A DNA stretch of 36,852 nt, taken from NCBI GenBank assembly GCA_023248875.1, contig JAHFDT010000005.1, positions 13,170 through 50,021 of the forward strand. The letters are read 5' to 3'. The notes under the pieces were generated by a model. It had not been told where the DNA came from. It saw only the letters and a program-made list of their open reading frames with translations, and made no database searches. Both the position numbers and the translations under genes were made by a program. The stretch is from Myxococcales bacterium (GTDB taxonomy: Bacteria > Myxococcota_A > Polyangia > Palsa-1104 > SHYY01). Below, one piece after another: positions 16,414 to 36,852 of this stretch; positions within the stretch are counted from its first letter, which is position 1, and each line of letters starts with the position of its first letter.

Positions 16414-17073
16414 ATGAGAACATTGCTTATGGCAGGAGCTCTTCTGTTTGCAGGACGGGCCGGGGCCAGCGACCAGACGGGCGTCTATGCCTACGTTTCG
16501 AGTGTGGTGTTCGAACCGAACGCGAGCGATGTTTCGACCGCGACCAAGGCCAAGATCACCGGCTGGTTCCGCATCGCGAATGGGGCGCTCGGCCAAGGCG
16601 ATAAGTACACCGACTCGGCGATGGGCTACCTCTACTACAGTTGCCCGACGGGGAAGGAGTCGGTGTGCCGCTCGGAGTGGACCGATATCAAGTACGCAGC
16701 AGGATCGAAGGACTGCAAGACCTGGGGCTCGCGCACTTTCTACACGACGACGGGCAACGGAACCGTACGAACGGATGCGAACGCCTCCAGCCCCGACCCG
16801 TACCCTGTCAACCAGGGGGTCGCCACCGCCAACCCGAACTTCAACTACTGCCCTGTGATCCCTGACGGGGGCGTCGAGCCCAAGGTCGATATGGCGCAAG
16901 CAGGGGCGGTCGATATGGCGAAGGCGGCGCCTGTGGACATGGCTCAAACGCCAGTCAATACCCCGAAGAGTGGCTGCTCGGCCGCGCTCGGCACGACCCA
17001 TACCGGGATGGGGGCGATGGTGGTGCTCGGCCTCTTGGCGGTGGTCACGCAGCACCGTCGTCGCCGTAGTTAA
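16414..17073 (+). CDS. Secreted protein with MYXO-CTERM-like sorting tail
   Basis: A 219-residue exported protein: signal peptide about 1-18 (MRTLLMAGALLFAGRAGA), a Cys-containing domain of unknown family (about 20-150), a linker with three VDMAQ/VDMAK repeats, then the tail SGCSAA, a hydrophobic helix (MGAMVVLGLLAVV) and QHRRRRS. Gly-Cys, a membrane helix and terminal Arg residues are the hallmarks of MYXO-CTERM, in which myxobacteria process and anchor proteins at the cell surface. A GAGGGGG Shine-Dalgarno lies 9 bases before ATG 16414. Its stop codon TAA shares bases with the left end of the repeat element at 17072. Confidence 0.8.
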   Translation: MRTLLMAGALLFAGRAGASDQTGVYAYVSSVVFEPNASDVSTATKAKITGWFRIANGALGQGDKYTDSAMGYLYYSCPTGKESVCRSEWTDIKYAAGSKDCKTWGSRTFYTTTGNGTVRTDANASSPDPYPVNQGVATANPNFNYCPVIPDGGVEPKVDMAQAGAVDMAKAAPVDMAQTPVNTPKSGCSAALGTTHTGMGAMVVLGLLAVVTQHRRRRS

Positions 17074-17394
17074 CACTACTGCGTCACTTTCTCCCATCTC
17101 TGTCGCTGCTGCGGACCCTGGCCGCTTCCTCGCTCCTCATACGCCCTCTCGTTGATCACTCGCGTCGTCGGGCCTACTGCGGGCCCAGCCCGCTGCGTTG
17201 TTCCTCGGTCAGCTACCTACAGGTAGCTTCCCTCGTCACGCCTTGCGGGCTGGGCTCCTCGCTACGGCCGGACTCGCTCCGGATCAACGGGAGGGCGTAT
17301 CAGTCGGTTACCACCAGTAGCCTTCTTCGTCGCTCGTCGCGACCGGGGATCCTCGCGACGCAACGGCTCGGTCCGAAAGTGACGTAGTGGTGTT
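17072..17394. repeat. Foldback (MITE-like) repeat element, copy A, with nested inverted repeat
   Basis: A 323-base non-coding block bounded by imperfect terminal inverted repeats: AACACTACTGCGTCACTTTC (17072-17091) and GAAAGTGACGTAGTGGTGTT (17375-17394), matching at 18 of 20 positions. It fills the whole gap between two genes, begins at the TAA of the upstream gene and its right end supplies the GTG of the downstream gene. A second copy starts at 36719. No transposase is encoded. Copy A differs from copy B mainly by an inserted block at 17139-17300. No clear target-site duplication is visible. It may be a non-autonomous mobile element or a structured transcript end. Confidence 0.8.
17139..17300. 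repeat. Nested inverted repeat inserted within copy A
   Basis: Ends ATACGCCCTCTCGTTGATC (17139-17157) and GATCAACGGGAGGGCGTAT (17282-17300) pair at 18 of 19 positions. Further in, GCCCAGCCCGC (17183-17193) pairs perfectly with GCGGGCTGGGC (17245-17255) and AGCTACCT (17211-17218) with AGGTAGCT (17221-17228), so the block can form one long imperfect hairpin. Copy B lacks it: there the sequence runs directly from CGCTCCTC to the GTCGGTTA region. It therefore looks like a second element inserted into the first. Confidence 0.75.
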
Positions 17395-18553
17395 AAACCG
17401 GTGGCTCGGCTCACCTCTCTTTCGTGCTTCGCGGTGGGATTCGCTGCTGGTGGGAGCGGGCCTCTTGCAAGGAGGGGTGCTCCTGCTCGCGGCGATCCAT
17501 GTTCGCCTGGGACCGAGTGCGGCGCCGGTGGTGCTGCTTGGTGCAGTGGGCCTATGGTGGAACTGCAATACCGTCTCCCATATCCATCTTCACACGCCGA
17601 TTTTTCGATCACGCTGGCAAAGCCGTGCTTTCGCGCTCTACCTGACCGCGCTGCTCGGTGTGCCGCAGACGATCTGGCGAGAGCGGCATCTGGCACACCA
17701 TGCCGGGCGAGAGGCGAGCCGTCGCCCGCTCGGCTTTGGTATCACGCTGGAAATAGTTCTCGTCGCAGCGGTGTGGGGCCTCTTGTTGCTGCGGGCGCCC
17801 AGCTTTTTCTTCGCGGTCTACCTTCCCGCCTACCTGCTGGGGCTGCTGCTGTGTCAGGCTCAGGGCCATTTTGAGCACCTCGGACAGCTGGGCGGTATCA
17901 GCCACTATGGCGCACTTTATAATGTGTTCTGGTTCAACGATGGCTTTCATGCAGAACACCACCAGCATCTCGGCGAGCATTGGACCCGTCTGCCTGCGCG
18001 ACGGCTGGCAGTGGCGTCGGTGAGTCGTTTTTCGCCACTTCTACGGTGGCTCGAGCCACTGCATCCGCTGGAATGGCTCGAATGGTGGGCGCTCGGCTGG
18101 CCGAGGCTACAGCGCTTTATGCTGGAGACGCACGAGCGAGCCTTTCGCCGCCTCTTGCCGGCCCTCGGAGATCGGCCGATCGCTCGCATCTGCATCGTTG
18201 GTGGAGGCCTTTTTCCCAGAACGGCGCTGGTGCTGCGAACGATCTATCCCACCGCGGATCTGGTGCTGCTCGACGCCGAGGAAGGGCACCTCGACCGGGC
18301 TCGCGACTATCTGCGCGAAAACGGCCATCCGTTCGCGCAGCTGGAATTTCGCTGCGGACGATTTGCCCCCGGAGCATGCTGCGATGCGGATCTGGTGGTG
18401 GTGCCGCTCGGCTTCTTCGGTGATCGGAAGGCGCTCTATCGCCAAGGCTCAGGGCCACCGATCATTGTGCACGATTGGCTGTGGCACAGGTGCGGACGGG
18501 CGAGTACGACCGTTTCGCTGCTGCTGCTCAAGCGCCTGAACCTCCTGAGATGA
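17387..18553 (+). CDS. Fatty-acid desaturase domain fused to a methyltransferase-like Rossmann domain
   Basis: A 388-residue fusion. Residues about 15-210 form a membrane-bound di-iron desaturase: hydrophobic pairs near 20-58 and 120-156, and His clusters H65/H67/H69 (SHIHLHTP), H101/H104/H105 (RHLAHH), H161/H164 (GHFEH) and H188/H191/H192 (FHAEHH). Residues about 263-388 begin a Rossmann fold with the glycine-rich loop IVGGG (270-274) and acidic LLDAEEGH (295-301), like SAM methyltransferases or nicotianamine synthase-like enzymes. The start is GTG 17387 or 17390, within the right end of the repeat element; no ATG is available near. It overlaps psd by ATGA, pointing to a phospholipid or fatty acyl substrate. 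Confidence 0.75.
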   Translation: MVLNRWLGSPLFRASRWDSLLVGAGLLQGGVLLLAAIHVRLGPSAAPVVLLGAVGLWWNCNTVSHIHLHTPIFRSRWQSRAFALYLTALLGVPQTIWRERHLAHHAGREASRRPLGFGITLEIVLVAAVWGLLLLRAPSFFFAVYLPAYLLGLLLCQAQGHFEHLGQLGGISHYGALYNVFWFNDGFHAEHHQHLGEHWTRLPARRLAVASVSRFSPLLRWLEPLHPLEWLEWWALGWPRLQRFMLETHERAFRRLLPALGDRPIARICIVGGGLFPRTALVLRTIYPTADLVLLDAEEGHLDRARDYLRENGHPFAQLEFRCGRFAPGACCDADLVVVPLGFFGDRKALYRQGSGPPIIVHDWLWHRCGRASTTVSLLLLKRLNLLR

Positions 18554-19374
18554 GGTGGCACCGCAGCGCACCGTTTCTGCACGTCTATCGCTTCTTGCCG
18601 CATCGCCTGCTCAATGCTGCTGCCGCCGCGCTCGGACGTGCGCGCTGGCCAGACTGGCTGGTGCAGGCCGCTATCCAGCACTGGACGCGACGAGGAGGGA
18701 TCGATCTCCAGGAATTTGAACCGACGGAATACCGAACCGTGGAGGAGTTCTTCTTGCGGCGGCTCCAACCCGGAAGGCGGCCTTTGGGCGAGGGGTTCGT
18801 CTCTCCTTGCGATGGCACCATCATCGATGCGGGGACTCTCACGCCGGACCGACGGCTGCAGGTAAAAGGTCAGCAGCTTTCCGTCGACCGTCTGGTCAAT
18901 GGGAGGCACCACGCGTTGCCGCTGCACGCCTACCAGGGTGGAAGTTATCTCGTGATCTTTCTCAGTCCGGACGGCTACCACCGCCTGCACATGCCGGCCG
19001 ATGGCGAGATCCGCGGTTGCCAGTGGATCCCGGGGCGCTATTTTCCGCAAAACGAGGAGGCTCTCCGGAAGATCGAACGGGTCTACGAGAGGAATGAGCG
19101 TGCCGTGTTGCGCCTTGTGCTCGATGAGGGATGGGAGCTCCTGCTGGTCCTGGTCGGTGCCAGTTTGGTGGGCGGCATCCATCTCGAGGGCGTGTTGCGC
19201 CAAGACTGGGTTCAGCCGCGCCCTGTGGAGTTGGCGCTGCGCCGAAAGAAAGGCGAGGAGATAGGCTATTTCAGCTTTGGCTCAACGGTGGTCGTGATCT
19301 TTCCGGCGGGGAAAGTGCCGGAGCACACCCAGGGTAACGTACGGATGGGGGATCCGCTATCCATTCACCGATAG
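18550..19374 (+). CDS. psd: Phosphatidylserine decarboxylase
   Basis: A 274-residue proenzyme that self-cleaves to form a pyruvoyl group and makes phosphatidylethanolamine from phosphatidylserine. Visible motifs are VEEFFLRRL (64-72), SPCDG with D88, YHRLHMP with H144 and H147, FPQNEE (165-170) and the cleavage site FGST, where S245 should become the pyruvoyl residue. The order and spacing fit bacterial Psd. ATG 18550 overlaps the stop of the desaturase fusion (ATGA), so both are made together. The 3' end overlaps the convergent sulfatase-fold gene by 10 bases. pssA is not in the window. Confidence 0.93.
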   Translation: MRWHRSAPFLHVYRFLPHRLLNAAAAALGRARWPDWLVQAAIQHWTRRGGIDLQEFEPTEYRTVEEFFLRRLQPGRRPLGEGFVSPCDGTIIDAGTLTPDRRLQVKGQQLSVDRLVNGRHHALPLHAYQGGSYLVIFLSPDGYHRLHMPADGEIRGCQWIPGRYFPQNEEALRKIERVYERNERAVLRLVLDEGWELLLVLVGASLVGGIHLEGVLRQDWVQPRPVELALRRKKGEEIGYFSFGSTVVVIFPAGKVPEHTQGNVRMGDPLSIHR

Positions 19375-21125
19375 GCCATCCAGCCGAGGAGATGGTTGCG
19401 AAAGCGAGCGACTCGTTCGCTTTGTGTCGAGCTGAGGTCGTGTTGCTCCCCCTGGTCTTGGTCTAGATCGAACAGCTGTGAGCGCCCGGTTTCCAATTCG
19501 TGGATGAATTTCCAGCGTCCGACACGCAGGCCTGCAAGCCACAGCGCCTGGTCGGTGAAAAAGCGCGCGATCCCCGGTTCAGGGATAAGCAGCGTGCGGC
19601 CCTGATAGCGAGACGGGATCGGTAGCCCCACGAGGTCAAGCAGCGTGGGCGCAACATCGATCGTGCTTCCCACCTGAGCTGCATGCTGCGCCGTTTGACC
19701 GGGCGGTACAATCACCAGCGGTACATGTAGATTCTCTTCGTAGAGGAAAAGTGTGTGGGCGAGGTTTCCCGGGTGCTGTTGAAAGGCCTCGCCGTGGTCC
19801 CCCATGACGACCCACAGGGTGTTTGGATCGAGCCCGCGGCGCGCGAGACCCTCGATGAGCGCACCGAGCGCGAGATCGCCGCGATAGAGATCGCTGGCGT
19901 AGATATCGATTTCTCGCGGGCCATCGAAGGGGCGCGGCCCCTCCCCGGGCGCGTTGTAGGGGTGGTGGCCGGCGATGGGCAGGTACATAAGAAAGAAGCG
20001 CTCGCCGGCTTTCAGGGCGTCGATGTATTCCAGGATCTTTCGGACGGTCGACGCTTCGTCGACGCCAAAGCTGGAGGCGTACTTTCCGCCGACATCACCA
20101 GCGTCGATGAGTTTTTCGAAGCCGCGCTGATCCACGATGCCCTGCATTCCGAGGTAGACGAAGCGGCCGGAGTGGAATAGCGCGGTGCGATAGCCGGCGG
20201 TGGCAAACTGCTCCGCGACGGACGGGCAGGGAAGCGCGCGTGCGGTGTACCGTTCGGGTCCGGTATACGGCGCGGGTGCCCGCGAACAGAGCGTCGCGAA
20301 GAGCCCCTTGATGCTCTCGGGATAGACGGTGTAGAGGCTGTCGAACACCACCCCGCGCGCGGCGAGCTGGGTGAGGTGCGGCGTAGGATCGCGCTCGGCT
20401 CCGTAGAGTTTGAGATACTGCGCTGCGGTCGATTCGAGCACCACCCAGACGACATTTTTCCCCCGGGCGATGGCGCGCAGCGATCGCAGATCGGTGGCAG
20501 GGCCGGTAGCGACGAGCGGCTCCAACTCCAGCGCATCGGTGTGCGAGCCAACGATCTGTCGCAGTGCAGTCGAGGCGAAGGCCCACAGCGCGTTGCGATG
20601 CAAACCGGCACTCTCCAGGTGGGCGGTCGCCAGAGGACCGAGCGCGAGTACCGGAGCCGCCAGGACTGAGAGAGCAACCAGTAGCCGCCGCCGTGGCGCT
20701 GTCACAAATCGCGGCAGGAACGCTGCCAGCGCGGCCACCGCCAGGACCGATACGATATTCTGCGCAGTGAAGTAGATGCGGATGGAGTCGGCCAGGGCGG
20801 CGCCGGCGTGGGTGAGGATGGGATAGGTAAGCGGCGTCGAGAAGATGCGCGCCGCCGCAACATTGAAAGCAACGTAGCCGGCCACCACGCCGTAAAGTGA
20901 CCACCCGAACCAGACAGCGAGACGGCCGAATCGGTGGAGGGTGAAGTCGCACACTCCCCAGATGATCAGCACCCACAGGTCCTGATAGAAAAAGGCGATC
21001 GGTGTCCACGGCGACCAGAGTGGCGCGGCCAGTCCGTCGAGTGAGCGCAGCGAAACGACACCGATCTTGGCGGCGATGAACACCAGGCCAAGGCACAGAG
21101 TGCGGCGCGCCCAGGTGCGATCCAT
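19365..21125 (-). CDS. Membrane sulfatase-fold enzyme (LtaS/EptA-like phosphotransferase or hydrolase)
   Basis: A 586-residue protein with about five N-terminal membrane segments (to about residue 190) and a periplasmic alkaline-phosphatase/sulfatase-fold domain. Metal-site motifs are VVWVVLEST (first acidic ligand), YPESIKGLFATLC, whose Ser or a nearby Thr may be the nucleophile, and VVMGDHGEAF (Asp-His pair), then HVPLVIVPPG, DVAPTLLDLVGL and YQGRTL typical of sulfatases. The Cys of true sulfatases is absent. LtaS and EptA relatives use phospholipid head groups as donors; with psd next door phosphoethanolamine transfer is possible but unproven. ATG 21125 is chosen from the TAGAAT element 7 bases upstream; 21155 would overlap the rimO promoter. 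Confidence 0.8.
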   Translation of the reverse strand: MDRTWARRTLCLGLVFIAAKIGVVSLRSLDGLAAPLWSPWTPIAFFYQDLWVLIIWGVCDFTLHRFGRLAVWFGWSLYGVVAGYVAFNVAAARIFSTPLTYPILTHAGAALADSIRIYFTAQNIVSVLAVAALAAFLPRFVTAPRRRLLVALSVLAAPVLALGPLATAHLESAGLHRNALWAFASTALRQIVGSHTDALELEPLVATGPATDLRSLRAIARGKNVVWVVLESTAAQYLKLYGAERDPTPHLTQLAARGVVFDSLYTVYPESIKGLFATLCSRAPAPYTGPERYTARALPCPSVAEQFATAGYRTALFHSGRFVYLGMQGIVDQRGFEKLIDAGDVGGKYASSFGVDEASTVRKILEYIDALKAGERFFLMYLPIAGHHPYNAPGEGPRPFDGPREIDIYASDLYRGDLALGALIEGLARRGLDPNTLWVVMGDHGEAFQQHPGNLAHTLFLYEENLHVPLVIVPPGQTAQHAAQVGSTIDVAPTLLDLVGLPIPSRYQGRTLLIPEPGIARFFTDQALWLAGLRVGRWKFIHELETGRSQLFDLDQDQGEQHDLSSTQSERVARFRNHLLGWMAYR

Positions 21126-21132
21126 TCGGTGA

Positions 21133-21138
21133 ATTCTA
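21133..21138 (-). promoter_or_regulatory. -10 element of the sulfatase-fold gene, leaderless type
   Basis: TAGAAT on the minus strand ends 7 bases before ATG 21125, without a Shine-Dalgarno sequence. The -35 region is weak. It lies 10 bases from the -35 of the divergent rimO promoter. Confidence 0.5.
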
Positions 21139-21148
21139 CCCCTGGAGG

Positions 21149-21177
21149 TTGACAAGTGCGGCGACGATCTGCATCGT
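21149..21177 (+). promoter_or_regulatory. Promoter of rimO, leaderless type
   Basis: A consensus TTGACA (21149-21154), 17 bases, then CATCGT (21172-21177), ending 6 bases before GTG 21184. There is no room for a Shine-Dalgarno, so the message would begin at or next to the start codon. Confidence 0.65.
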
Positions 21178-35558: not shown

Positions 35559-36718
35559 TGCGCGATGTGGCGATTGTGGAGGGCGTTCGAACGCCGTTTG
35601 GGCGAGCGCTCAAAGGATCACTCAAGGACACGCGGCCCGATACCTTGGCGGCACGGGTGATCCGCGAAGCGGTGGCGCGCGCCAAGATCGATCCAGCAAC
35701 GGTCGAGGATGTGGTGCTCGGCTGCGCGATGCCGGAGGGGGAGCAGGGGCTCAACATCGCGCGGGTGGCGGCGCTGGCTGCCGGGCTGCCGGTGGAGACG
35801 CCGGCGATGACGATCAATCGCTTTTGCTCCTCGGGGCTGCAGTCGATGGTCAATATCGGCGATCGCATCGCCGTCGGAGCGATCGAGGTGGGCGTTGCCG
35901 GCGGTGTCGAATCGATGTCGATGATTCCCATGACCGGTAACAAACCGTCGCTCAATCCGCAGCTCGTGGAGGAGCGGCCGGAGATCTTTACGCCGATGGG
36001 CGTGACCGCAGAAAATGTGGCGCGCCGTTTCGAAATTTCGCGTGCGGCGCAGGATGAGTTTGCGCTACGATCGCATTTGCTCACGGTGGCGGCCCAAGCT
36101 GCGGGTAGGTTTGATGCCGAGATACTGGCGATCGAAACCACGCTCCTCGAGGGCACTGCGTCGCGCCCGGTGAGCCTCAAGCGCGACGAGCTACCCCGCG
36201 CCGATACCACTTTGGAAAAGCTCGCGCAGCTTAGGCCCTCCTTCGATCCCACCGGGACGGTTACGGCGGGTAATTCGTCGCCACTGACCGACGGCGCGGC
36301 TGCGGTGGTGCTGATGAGTGCTGAGAGTGCACGTGCTATGGGTGCGAAGCCGCTCGGTTACTTGCGCCATTTCGCAGTCGCGGGCGTGCCGCCCGACATC
36401 ATGGGCATCGGCCCGGTGCCAGCCGTTCGCAAAGTTCTGGCGCGCGCGGGAATGAAGATCGAGCAGATCGATCTGTTCGAACTGAACGAAGCGTTCGCGG
36501 CTCAATCGCTCTATTGCATCCGAGAGCTGGGACTCGCTTCCGAGAAGGTGAATGTTAACGGCGGCGCCATCGCGATCGGCCATCCACTAGGCGTCTCGGG
36601 CACTCGGCTGGCCCTGACGATCTTGCACGAACTCCGTCGGCGCGGCGACAAGTTTGGCATCGTGACCATGTGCATTGGCGGCGGTATGGGGGCAGCCGCG
36701 ATCCTTGAAGCGGCCTAG
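35558..36718 (+). CDS. fadA: Acetyl-CoA acyltransferase (thiolase), beta-oxidation type
   Basis: A 386-residue thiolase that cleaves 3-ketoacyl-CoA with CoA. Nucleophile C90 ([10 protein letters not shown]), NEAFA, H342 in [10 protein letters not shown] and C372 in CIGGGMG complete the active site. TPFGR near the N-terminus and the overall sequence fit FadA/FadI-type enzymes, partner of the upstream FadN-type protein. ATG 35558 overlaps the stop of the ABM gene (TGATG); the frame extends to 35507 but [15 protein letters not shown] is the natural N-terminus. The second foldback element begins at the base after its stop. Confidence 0.93.
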
Positions 36719-36852
36719 CACTACTGCGTCACTTTCTCCCATCTCCATCGCTGCTGCGGGCCCCGTCCGCTTCCTCGCTCCTCGGTCGGTTACGACCAGT
36801 AGCCTTCCTCGTCGCTCGTCGCGACCGGGTCTCCTCGTGACGCAACGGCTCG
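36719..36852. repeat. Foldback repeat element, copy B (truncated by window end)
   Basis: Starts with CACTACTGCGTCACTTTCTC directly after the thiolase stop and runs to the window end, aligning with copy A (17074 onward) over both arms but without the 162-base nested block. The right terminal repeat is beyond the window. It contains short self-complementary pieces GGTCGGTTACGACC and GTCGCGAC. Probably the ancestral, simpler form of the element. Confidence 0.8.

Follow-up and report, generated by a model that had tools for sequence, protein, structure and literature searches.

The window analysed here is a stretch of 36,852 nucleotides from a Myxococcales bacterium (class Polyangia; NCBI GenBank assembly GCA_023248875.1, contig JAHFDT010000005.1, positions 13,170 to 50,021 of the forward strand). 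It contains a gene, here termed FUS, in which a single predicted membrane protein joins a di-iron FA_desaturase-type domain to a class I S-adenosylmethionine (SAM)-methyltransferase-type fold. FUS lies between SEC, which encodes a secreted protein, and PSD (also psd), a paralogue of phosphatidylserine decarboxylase, followed by the convergent gene SUL for a membrane enzyme of the alkaline phosphatase superfamily (Table 1). An earlier interpretation, made from the letters of the DNA alone and hereafter called the sequence-only reading, had located the open reading frame of FUS, noted its overlap with psd by ATGA and taken its product for a desaturase fused to a methyltransferase-like domain. 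Both the coordinates and the overlap were correct, and alignment of homologues together with structure prediction confirmed that the two domains share one polypeptide.

Table 1. Features of the locus, in window coordinates.
Feature	Position	Strand	Remarks
FUS, desaturase-SAM-domain fusion	17387..18553	+	388 aa; GTG start predicted
FUS N-terminal domain, residues 1-215, membrane di-iron FA_desaturase/hydroxylase type	17387..18031	+	PF00487
His box 1, H65-x3-H69	17579..17593	+	conserved 18/18
His box 2, H101-x2-H104-H105	17687..17701	+	conserved 18/18
H164 in conserved QGxxEH motif	17876..17878	+	conserved 18/18
His box 3, H188-x2-H191-H192	17948..17962	+	conserved 18/18
FUS C-terminal domain, residues 226-388, predicted class I SAM-methyltransferase fold	18062..18550	+	AlphaFold2, Foldseek
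SAM motif I loop GGGLFPR, residues 272-278	18200..18220	+	no acid in beta-1
D296, acid ending beta-2 (SAM ribose position)	18272..18274	+	20/20
H362-D363-W364 after beta-5, candidate catalytic residues	18470..18478	+	H and W 20/20; D 18/20, E in two
ATGA overlap of psd start and fusion stop	18550..18553	+	psd ATG at 18550; TGA 18551-18553
PSD, phosphatidylserine decarboxylase paralogue	18550..19374	+	FGST pyruvoyl motif; PF02666 6.1e-49
SUL, membrane alkaline-phosphatase-superfamily enzyme, LtaS-like	19365..21155	-	convergent with psd; PF00884 4.3e-45
SEC, secreted protein with C-terminal MYXO-CTERM-like tail	16414..17073	+	219 aa; tail GCS...hydrophobic stretch...RRRR; upstream of fusion
Nested MITE-like insertions between SEC and fusion	17068..17398		inverted repeats; fold z -7.3
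Outer element, ~170 bp	17068-17138 + 17300-17398		ends CTAG or TTAA
Inner palindromic element, 162 bp, interrupting the outer	17139-17300		inverted repeats

A protein search of relatives recovered full-length fusions from four further genomes of the class, at identities of 49-53%. In a fifth (G012) the gene is split over two contig ends (L009/L017), the result of a contig break within the gene. A profile search found 18 strong members among 318 genomes of the class, the G141 member being cut by the contig start; four members occur in other classes of the same phylum (G378, G436, G478, G545) and four in Planctomycetota (G592, G593, G644, G872). In all, 25 further loci were recovered, and every frame-complete fusion is intact with the sole exception of L004 (genome G593; L004:2817-4374), where the SAM domain stands alone immediately 5' of psd. 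The examined sequence of this locus showed neither a desaturase nor any remnant of one, and the free-standing domain may be either a separate functional protein or a product of gene fission. Since the SAM domain of the fusion is kept at 35-55% identity across many families, the fusion is not a chance event; its conservation and its single reading frame rule out a frameshift artefact as well. Two neighbouring genes misread as one can also be ruled out, as the SAM domain occurs alone only in L004. A protein tree of 20 rows was poorly resolved and recovered no clear history.

The N-terminal domain of FUS matches PF00487 (FA_desaturase) with an E-value of 8.8e-11 and 42.5 bits, above the gathering cut-off of 29.7, and this family is matched by 18 of the 21 fusion members. 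The three histidine boxes and His164 are invariant in the 18 homologues that cover these positions, as is His198. Long helices run across residues 18-163 in the AlphaFold2 model. The histidine boxes had thus been rightly attributed to a membrane di-iron desaturase-type domain. Desaturation as the activity is not established by these matches: the FA_hydroxylase profile also matches 8 of the 21 members, and hydroxylation is equally possible. FUS has no NCBIfam match, and no relative was found in the PDB by sequence.

Desaturases encoded on Rhizobium plasmids were considered as an unfused form of the module and rejected; their neighbours encode an aminotransferase, an arginase, a hydrolase and others, with no psd or LtaS-like gene. 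One such plasmid cluster (L118:2562-10560) combines a desaturase related to the N-terminal domain of FUS with HAD phosphatase, class III aminotransferase, arginase, hydrolase and cyclopropane-synthase-family genes. It may represent a separate lipid or amine pathway that looks undescribed.

In the C-terminal half, the Pfam scan of the window protein gave no curated match. Methyltransf_25 matches 12 of the 21 members with a best E-value of 7.3e-4, and all Pfam matches of the isolated SAM domains are below the curated cut-offs. The AlphaFold2 model of FUS, built with 21 homologues, has a mean predicted local distance difference test score of 89.3 and places seven strands in this domain (267-271, 291-296, 319-323, 336-339, 359-364, 372-377 and 382-387), with a predicted topology, including the beta-6/beta-7 hairpin, of a class I SAM-methyltransferase. 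Foldseek against the PDB returned proteins of the SAM-methyltransferase fold, many of them solved with S-adenosylhomocysteine or SAM, at E-values of about 1e-4 and a probability of 1.00. The sequence-only reading had tied its proposal to a Rossmann fold with a SAM-binding pocket in this half of the protein, and the model and the alignment point to both the fold and the site residues.

Alignment of 20 members revealed that Gly272-Gly274, Phe276, Pro277, Arg278, Asp296, Pro340, Leu341, Gly345, His362, Trp364 and Lys382 are invariant, and the motif I loop has the consensus GGGxFPR[TS]. The acid expected at the -2 position of motif I occurs in none of the 20 members, each of which carries a hydrophobic residue there. 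A VGGG loop and an acidic SAM-type residue had been reported from the window: the three glycines and a strictly conserved acid are present, but the acid is that of beta-2 (motif II), and the acid of motif I is missing. The SAM-type Rossmann fold is therefore retained, whereas methyl transfer, as first suggested, is kept only as a candidate activity, since the motif I acid is missing.

Three partners recur around the fusion, with SEC upstream, PSD downstream and SUL nearby, often convergent. PSD adjoins the fusion at 17 of the 18 loci of the class, the exception being L021, which upholds the coupling to phosphatidylserine decarboxylase noted at the start. SUL lies within the locus at 15 (not found in L051, L052 and the short contig L059). 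A SEC homologue is likewise present at 15; it is missing in L020, L055 and L059, each with only 0-1.2 kb of upstream sequence, and wherever a class locus extends far enough, SEC precedes the fusion. L051 and L052 belong to one genus and keep SEC-fusion-PSD, with no SUL found in the flanks examined, and a third member of that genus, L055, has SUL beside psd. An all-against-all comparison of the neighbourhoods revealed no further shared gene beyond close relatives. The loci from other classes, which lay outside the definition of the cassette, served as an independent check: PSD adjoins the fusion in all four and SUL is present in one. In Planctomycetota, SUL is found in three of the four loci, arranged as SEC-fusion-SUL (L003, L115) or fusion-SUL (L114), all without psd. 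The gene psd is a dispensable member of the cassette in Planctomycetota and in one member of the class. What was first seen as a fusion-psd pair is thus a set of four, comprising SEC, the fusion, the PSD paralogue and SUL, in which the coupling to psd holds.

The 4-nt overlap between the fusion and psd recurs in six of the ten loci measured, and the FGST motif is present in all cassette PSDs aligned. The window copy shares about 50-56% identity with the other cassette PSDs but 31% with the genome's second PSD, so the cassette enzymes form a separate subfamily. The cassette enzyme is predicted to be an extra PSD, and another amino-acid lipid may be its substrate. The second PSD and the separation of the subfamily also weaken the explanation that a housekeeping psd lies next door by accident.

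SUL gave full-domain matches over residues 230-525 to the PDB entries 3lxq (4.4e-18) and 4uoo (5e-12); across that domain, 3lxq and lipoteichoic acid (LTA) synthase/primase rank as its closest solved structures. Sulfatases are defined by the formylglycine motif C/S-x-P-x-R. This motif was not found in SUL, which instead carries the invariant motifs ESt and PESIKG (PESIKGL), and SUL is therefore read as a putative LtaS-type phosphotransferase or hydrolase.

SEC carries a tail of cysteine, hydrophobic stretch and arginines, found in all 15 Myxococcota-type members, and the hydrophobic stretch of the window protein falls below the hydropathy threshold applied. TIGR03901 (MYXO-CTERM) matched the window SEC with an E-value of 0.0031 and 17.9 bits (cut-off 20), and with 21.6 bits in the whole-genome scan. 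Six proteins of the window's genome exceed the MYXO-CTERM cut-off, compared with none in the 14 control genomes; as MYXO-CTERM is reported from all of Myxococcota (PMC11980579), this points to a myxobacterium as the probable host. The SEC partners of Planctomycetota (L003, L115) lack the tail. At L098:4932-6884, in a distant class member, the fusion is immediately preceded by a divergently oriented gene for a different protein, larger and ending in a MYXO-CTERM-like tail (GCSMARG...RRRR).

The gap between SEC and the fusion is 313 bp in the window and consists almost wholly of nested insertions resembling miniature inverted-repeat transposable elements (MITEs), whereas in the relatives measured the two genes are mostly close or overlapping. 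The outer element has about 12 copies in the genome and the inner one four in all, that of the window and three further. The ends CTAG/TTAA of the outer element suggest a 4-bp target duplication. The predicted GTG start of FUS falls within the outer element's right-hand terminal repeat, and the next in-frame start codon seen comes only at about residue 22, which already belongs to the conserved region; the insertion therefore probably both supplied the present start codon and set SEC apart from the fusion-psd pair. At 36716-36852, the contig end truncates a second copy of the outer element, and the break of the contig therefore probably lies within this repeat.

Based on these results, we propose that the fusion tailors lipids in the inner membrane as part of a dedicated cassette linked to phosphatidylethanolamine (PE), a reading to which we give a probability of roughly one half. 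In the proposed pathway, the PSD paralogue would decarboxylate a phosphatidylserine-type lipid to provide a dedicated PE pool. The di-iron domain would oxidise a chain of the PE lipid by desaturation or hydroxylation, and the SAM domain, on the cytoplasmic face, would put a SAM-derived group, most simply methyl, on the same lipid. On the outer face, the finished lipid might then serve SUL as donor of a phospho-head group for an acceptor at the surface, possibly SEC. A dedicated module is supported by the fusion, the adjacency of PSD, the linkage of SUL, the invariant sites, the fold, the second, distant PSD of the genome, the LtaS-like character of SUL and the lack of other genes recurring beyond close relatives. 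The data establish the joining of the two domains, the integrity of the di-iron and SAM-site residues, the conservation of the cassette and the extra PSD subfamily; the lipid substrate, the transferred group, the order of the steps and the acceptor are inferred. The sequence-only reading had suggested a lipid-tailoring pair that desaturates and methylates near PE; its fusion, SAM fold and psd coupling are kept here, and its desaturation and methyl transfer become candidate activities. Several findings weigh against our proposal. PSD is missing in L021, L003, L114 and L115, so the supply of PE is not strictly coupled to the fusion. SUL was not found near L051 and L052, no Pfam or NCBIfam domain was detected in SEC besides the C-terminal tail, and the motif I acid usual in methyltransferases is missing from the SAM domain.

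The missing acid bears on which group of SAM would be transferred. This acid is exceptionally well conserved among methyltransferases, and its loss in nicotianamine synthase (NAS) has been tied to the transfer of aminocarboxypropyl instead of methyl (Kozbial and Mushegian, PMC1282579). The SAM domain might accordingly move the 3-amino-3-carboxypropyl group of SAM onto a lipid, as NAS does between SAM molecules, and the adjacent pyruvoyl decarboxylase might then yield an aminopropyl group. We regard this as unlikely. The acid is absent from all 20 members as in NAS (PMC1282579), the loop GGGxFPR[TS] resembles, without being identical to, GGGPLPLT of archaeal NAS (3fpe/3o31), and the NAS family PF03059 matches 5 of the 21 members with a best E-value of 0.0039. 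In addition, hhalign of the fusion profile against three NAS sequences gave a probability of 91.6, the three-row NAS alignment including one search-seed sequence written from general knowledge (the matches found with that seed are real records). However, generic methyltransferase models match more members with better scores, as given above for Methyltransf_25, and whole-genome PF03059 scans do not recover the fusion. Psd is missing from some cassettes, and most methyltransferase sequences outscore NAS against the fusion profile, a ranking biased against NAS in that the methyltransferase controls come mostly from loci fetched for matching the profile. Because this control set was largely preselected, NAS-like chemistry is treated as a rival and not as a conclusion. 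Membership in the NAS family was rejected: the motif likeness is real, but the domains alone score 12.4-14.3 bits against PF03059 (cut-off 27.1), and NAS does not rank above methyltransferases. The same missing acid would also fit a SAM domain that is catalytically inactive or a regulatory SAM-binding module with a stabilising or sensing role. In that case only the di-iron domain would carry out chemistry, its substrate being an acyl chain or some other hydrophobic molecule. The domain is small (about 160 aa), has no added substrate-binding cap and exists as a free-standing copy in L004. We consider this explanation doubtful, as the SAM loop, the beta-2 acid and the HDW/K residues are strongly conserved, and the L004 copy still adjoins psd.

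Membrane di-iron enzymes work on many different substrates. Together with the loci that lack psd, this breadth would allow the linkage to psd to be incidental and the fusion to act on a hydrophobic compound of an unrelated kind, for instance a carotenoid or natural product. Little weight is given to this possibility, since PSD belongs to a dedicated subfamily and adjoins the fusion in 21 of the 22 loci of the window's phylum, distant classes included. The cassette could instead anchor proteins, preparing a lipid for the co-encoded MYXO-CTERM-type SEC by analogy with the dependence of archaeosortase on PssA/PssD. The upstream partner in the class is a secreted protein with the Cys-hydrophobic-Arg tail wherever enough sequence is present, no lipidating enzyme is yet known for MYXO-CTERM proteins (PMC11980579), and lipid anchoring of archaeosortase substrates in Haloferax requires PssD (PMC7157517). 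However, MYXO-CTERM proteins are reported throughout Myxococcota (PMC11980579), whereas just 18 of the 318 class genomes were found to carry the cassette. The cassette is therefore not a general lipidation machinery and at most serves its own SEC; with the tailless partners of Planctomycetota also against it, protein anchoring appears improbable. A combined scheme, in which the fusion would oxidise a PE-type lipid and add aminocarboxypropyl, PSD would trim this to aminopropyl and SUL would move the new head group onto the MYXO-CTERM-type SEC, is very improbable. If true, it would couple a novel chemistry of lipid head groups to a system dedicated to protein modification.

The reading we prefer is thus a PE-linked lipid-tailoring cassette. 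Its recurrence over many families and two phyla suggests that the cassette probably makes a specific, not yet known membrane or surface lipid, and in Myxococcota the four genes offer concrete candidates for surface modification that depends on lipids. As the sequence-only reading had supposed of the fusion, no description of it or of the cassette was found in the literature searched, from which most subscription papers were excluded; the desaturase-SAM fusion and the four-gene set appear to be undescribed, and all component superfamilies are known.

The N-terminal domain resembles the FA_desaturase superfamily of bacterial membrane desaturases and hydroxylases in its helical membrane core and three histidine boxes, and FUS differs from this superfamily by the C-terminal SAM domain. 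CarF/PEDS1, the plasmanylethanolamine desaturase of Myxococcus, presumably belongs to a Pfam family other than PF00487, which the fusion members match. It shares with FUS the His-box desaturase type, the connection to ethanolamine lipids and the phylum (PMC9131029), and it is not known to have a fused SAM domain or a link to psd. Similar to class I SAM methyltransferases (Methyltransf_25/31; CouO 5m58, 1wzn), the C-terminal domain is predicted to have seven strands with the beta-6/beta-7 hairpin, the glycine loop and the beta-2 acid. However, it lacks the motif I acid, carries the GGGxFPR[TS] loop and HDW after beta-5, and scores below every Pfam curated cut-off. The likeness to nicotianamine synthase (PF03059; 3fpe, 3o31) consists of the missing acid and of a GGGxxPxT loop that comes near the GGG/GSGPxPLT form of NAS without matching it exactly, whereas FUS is below the curated cut-off, has no NAS N-terminal domain and is not preferentially related to NAS over methyltransferases. 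SUL resembles the membrane phosphotransferases of the LtaS/OpgB/EptA type in its hydrophobic N-terminus and alkaline-phosphatase domain, with 3lxq and LTA synthase as closest solved relatives; the SUL group stands apart through its PESIKG motif and its gene linkage to the fusion. The archaeosortase system PssA/PssD (PMC7157517) likewise links a PSD-type enzyme to a surface-protein sorting signal, whereas the cassette has no sortase and adds the desaturase-SAM fusion and the LtaS-like enzyme.

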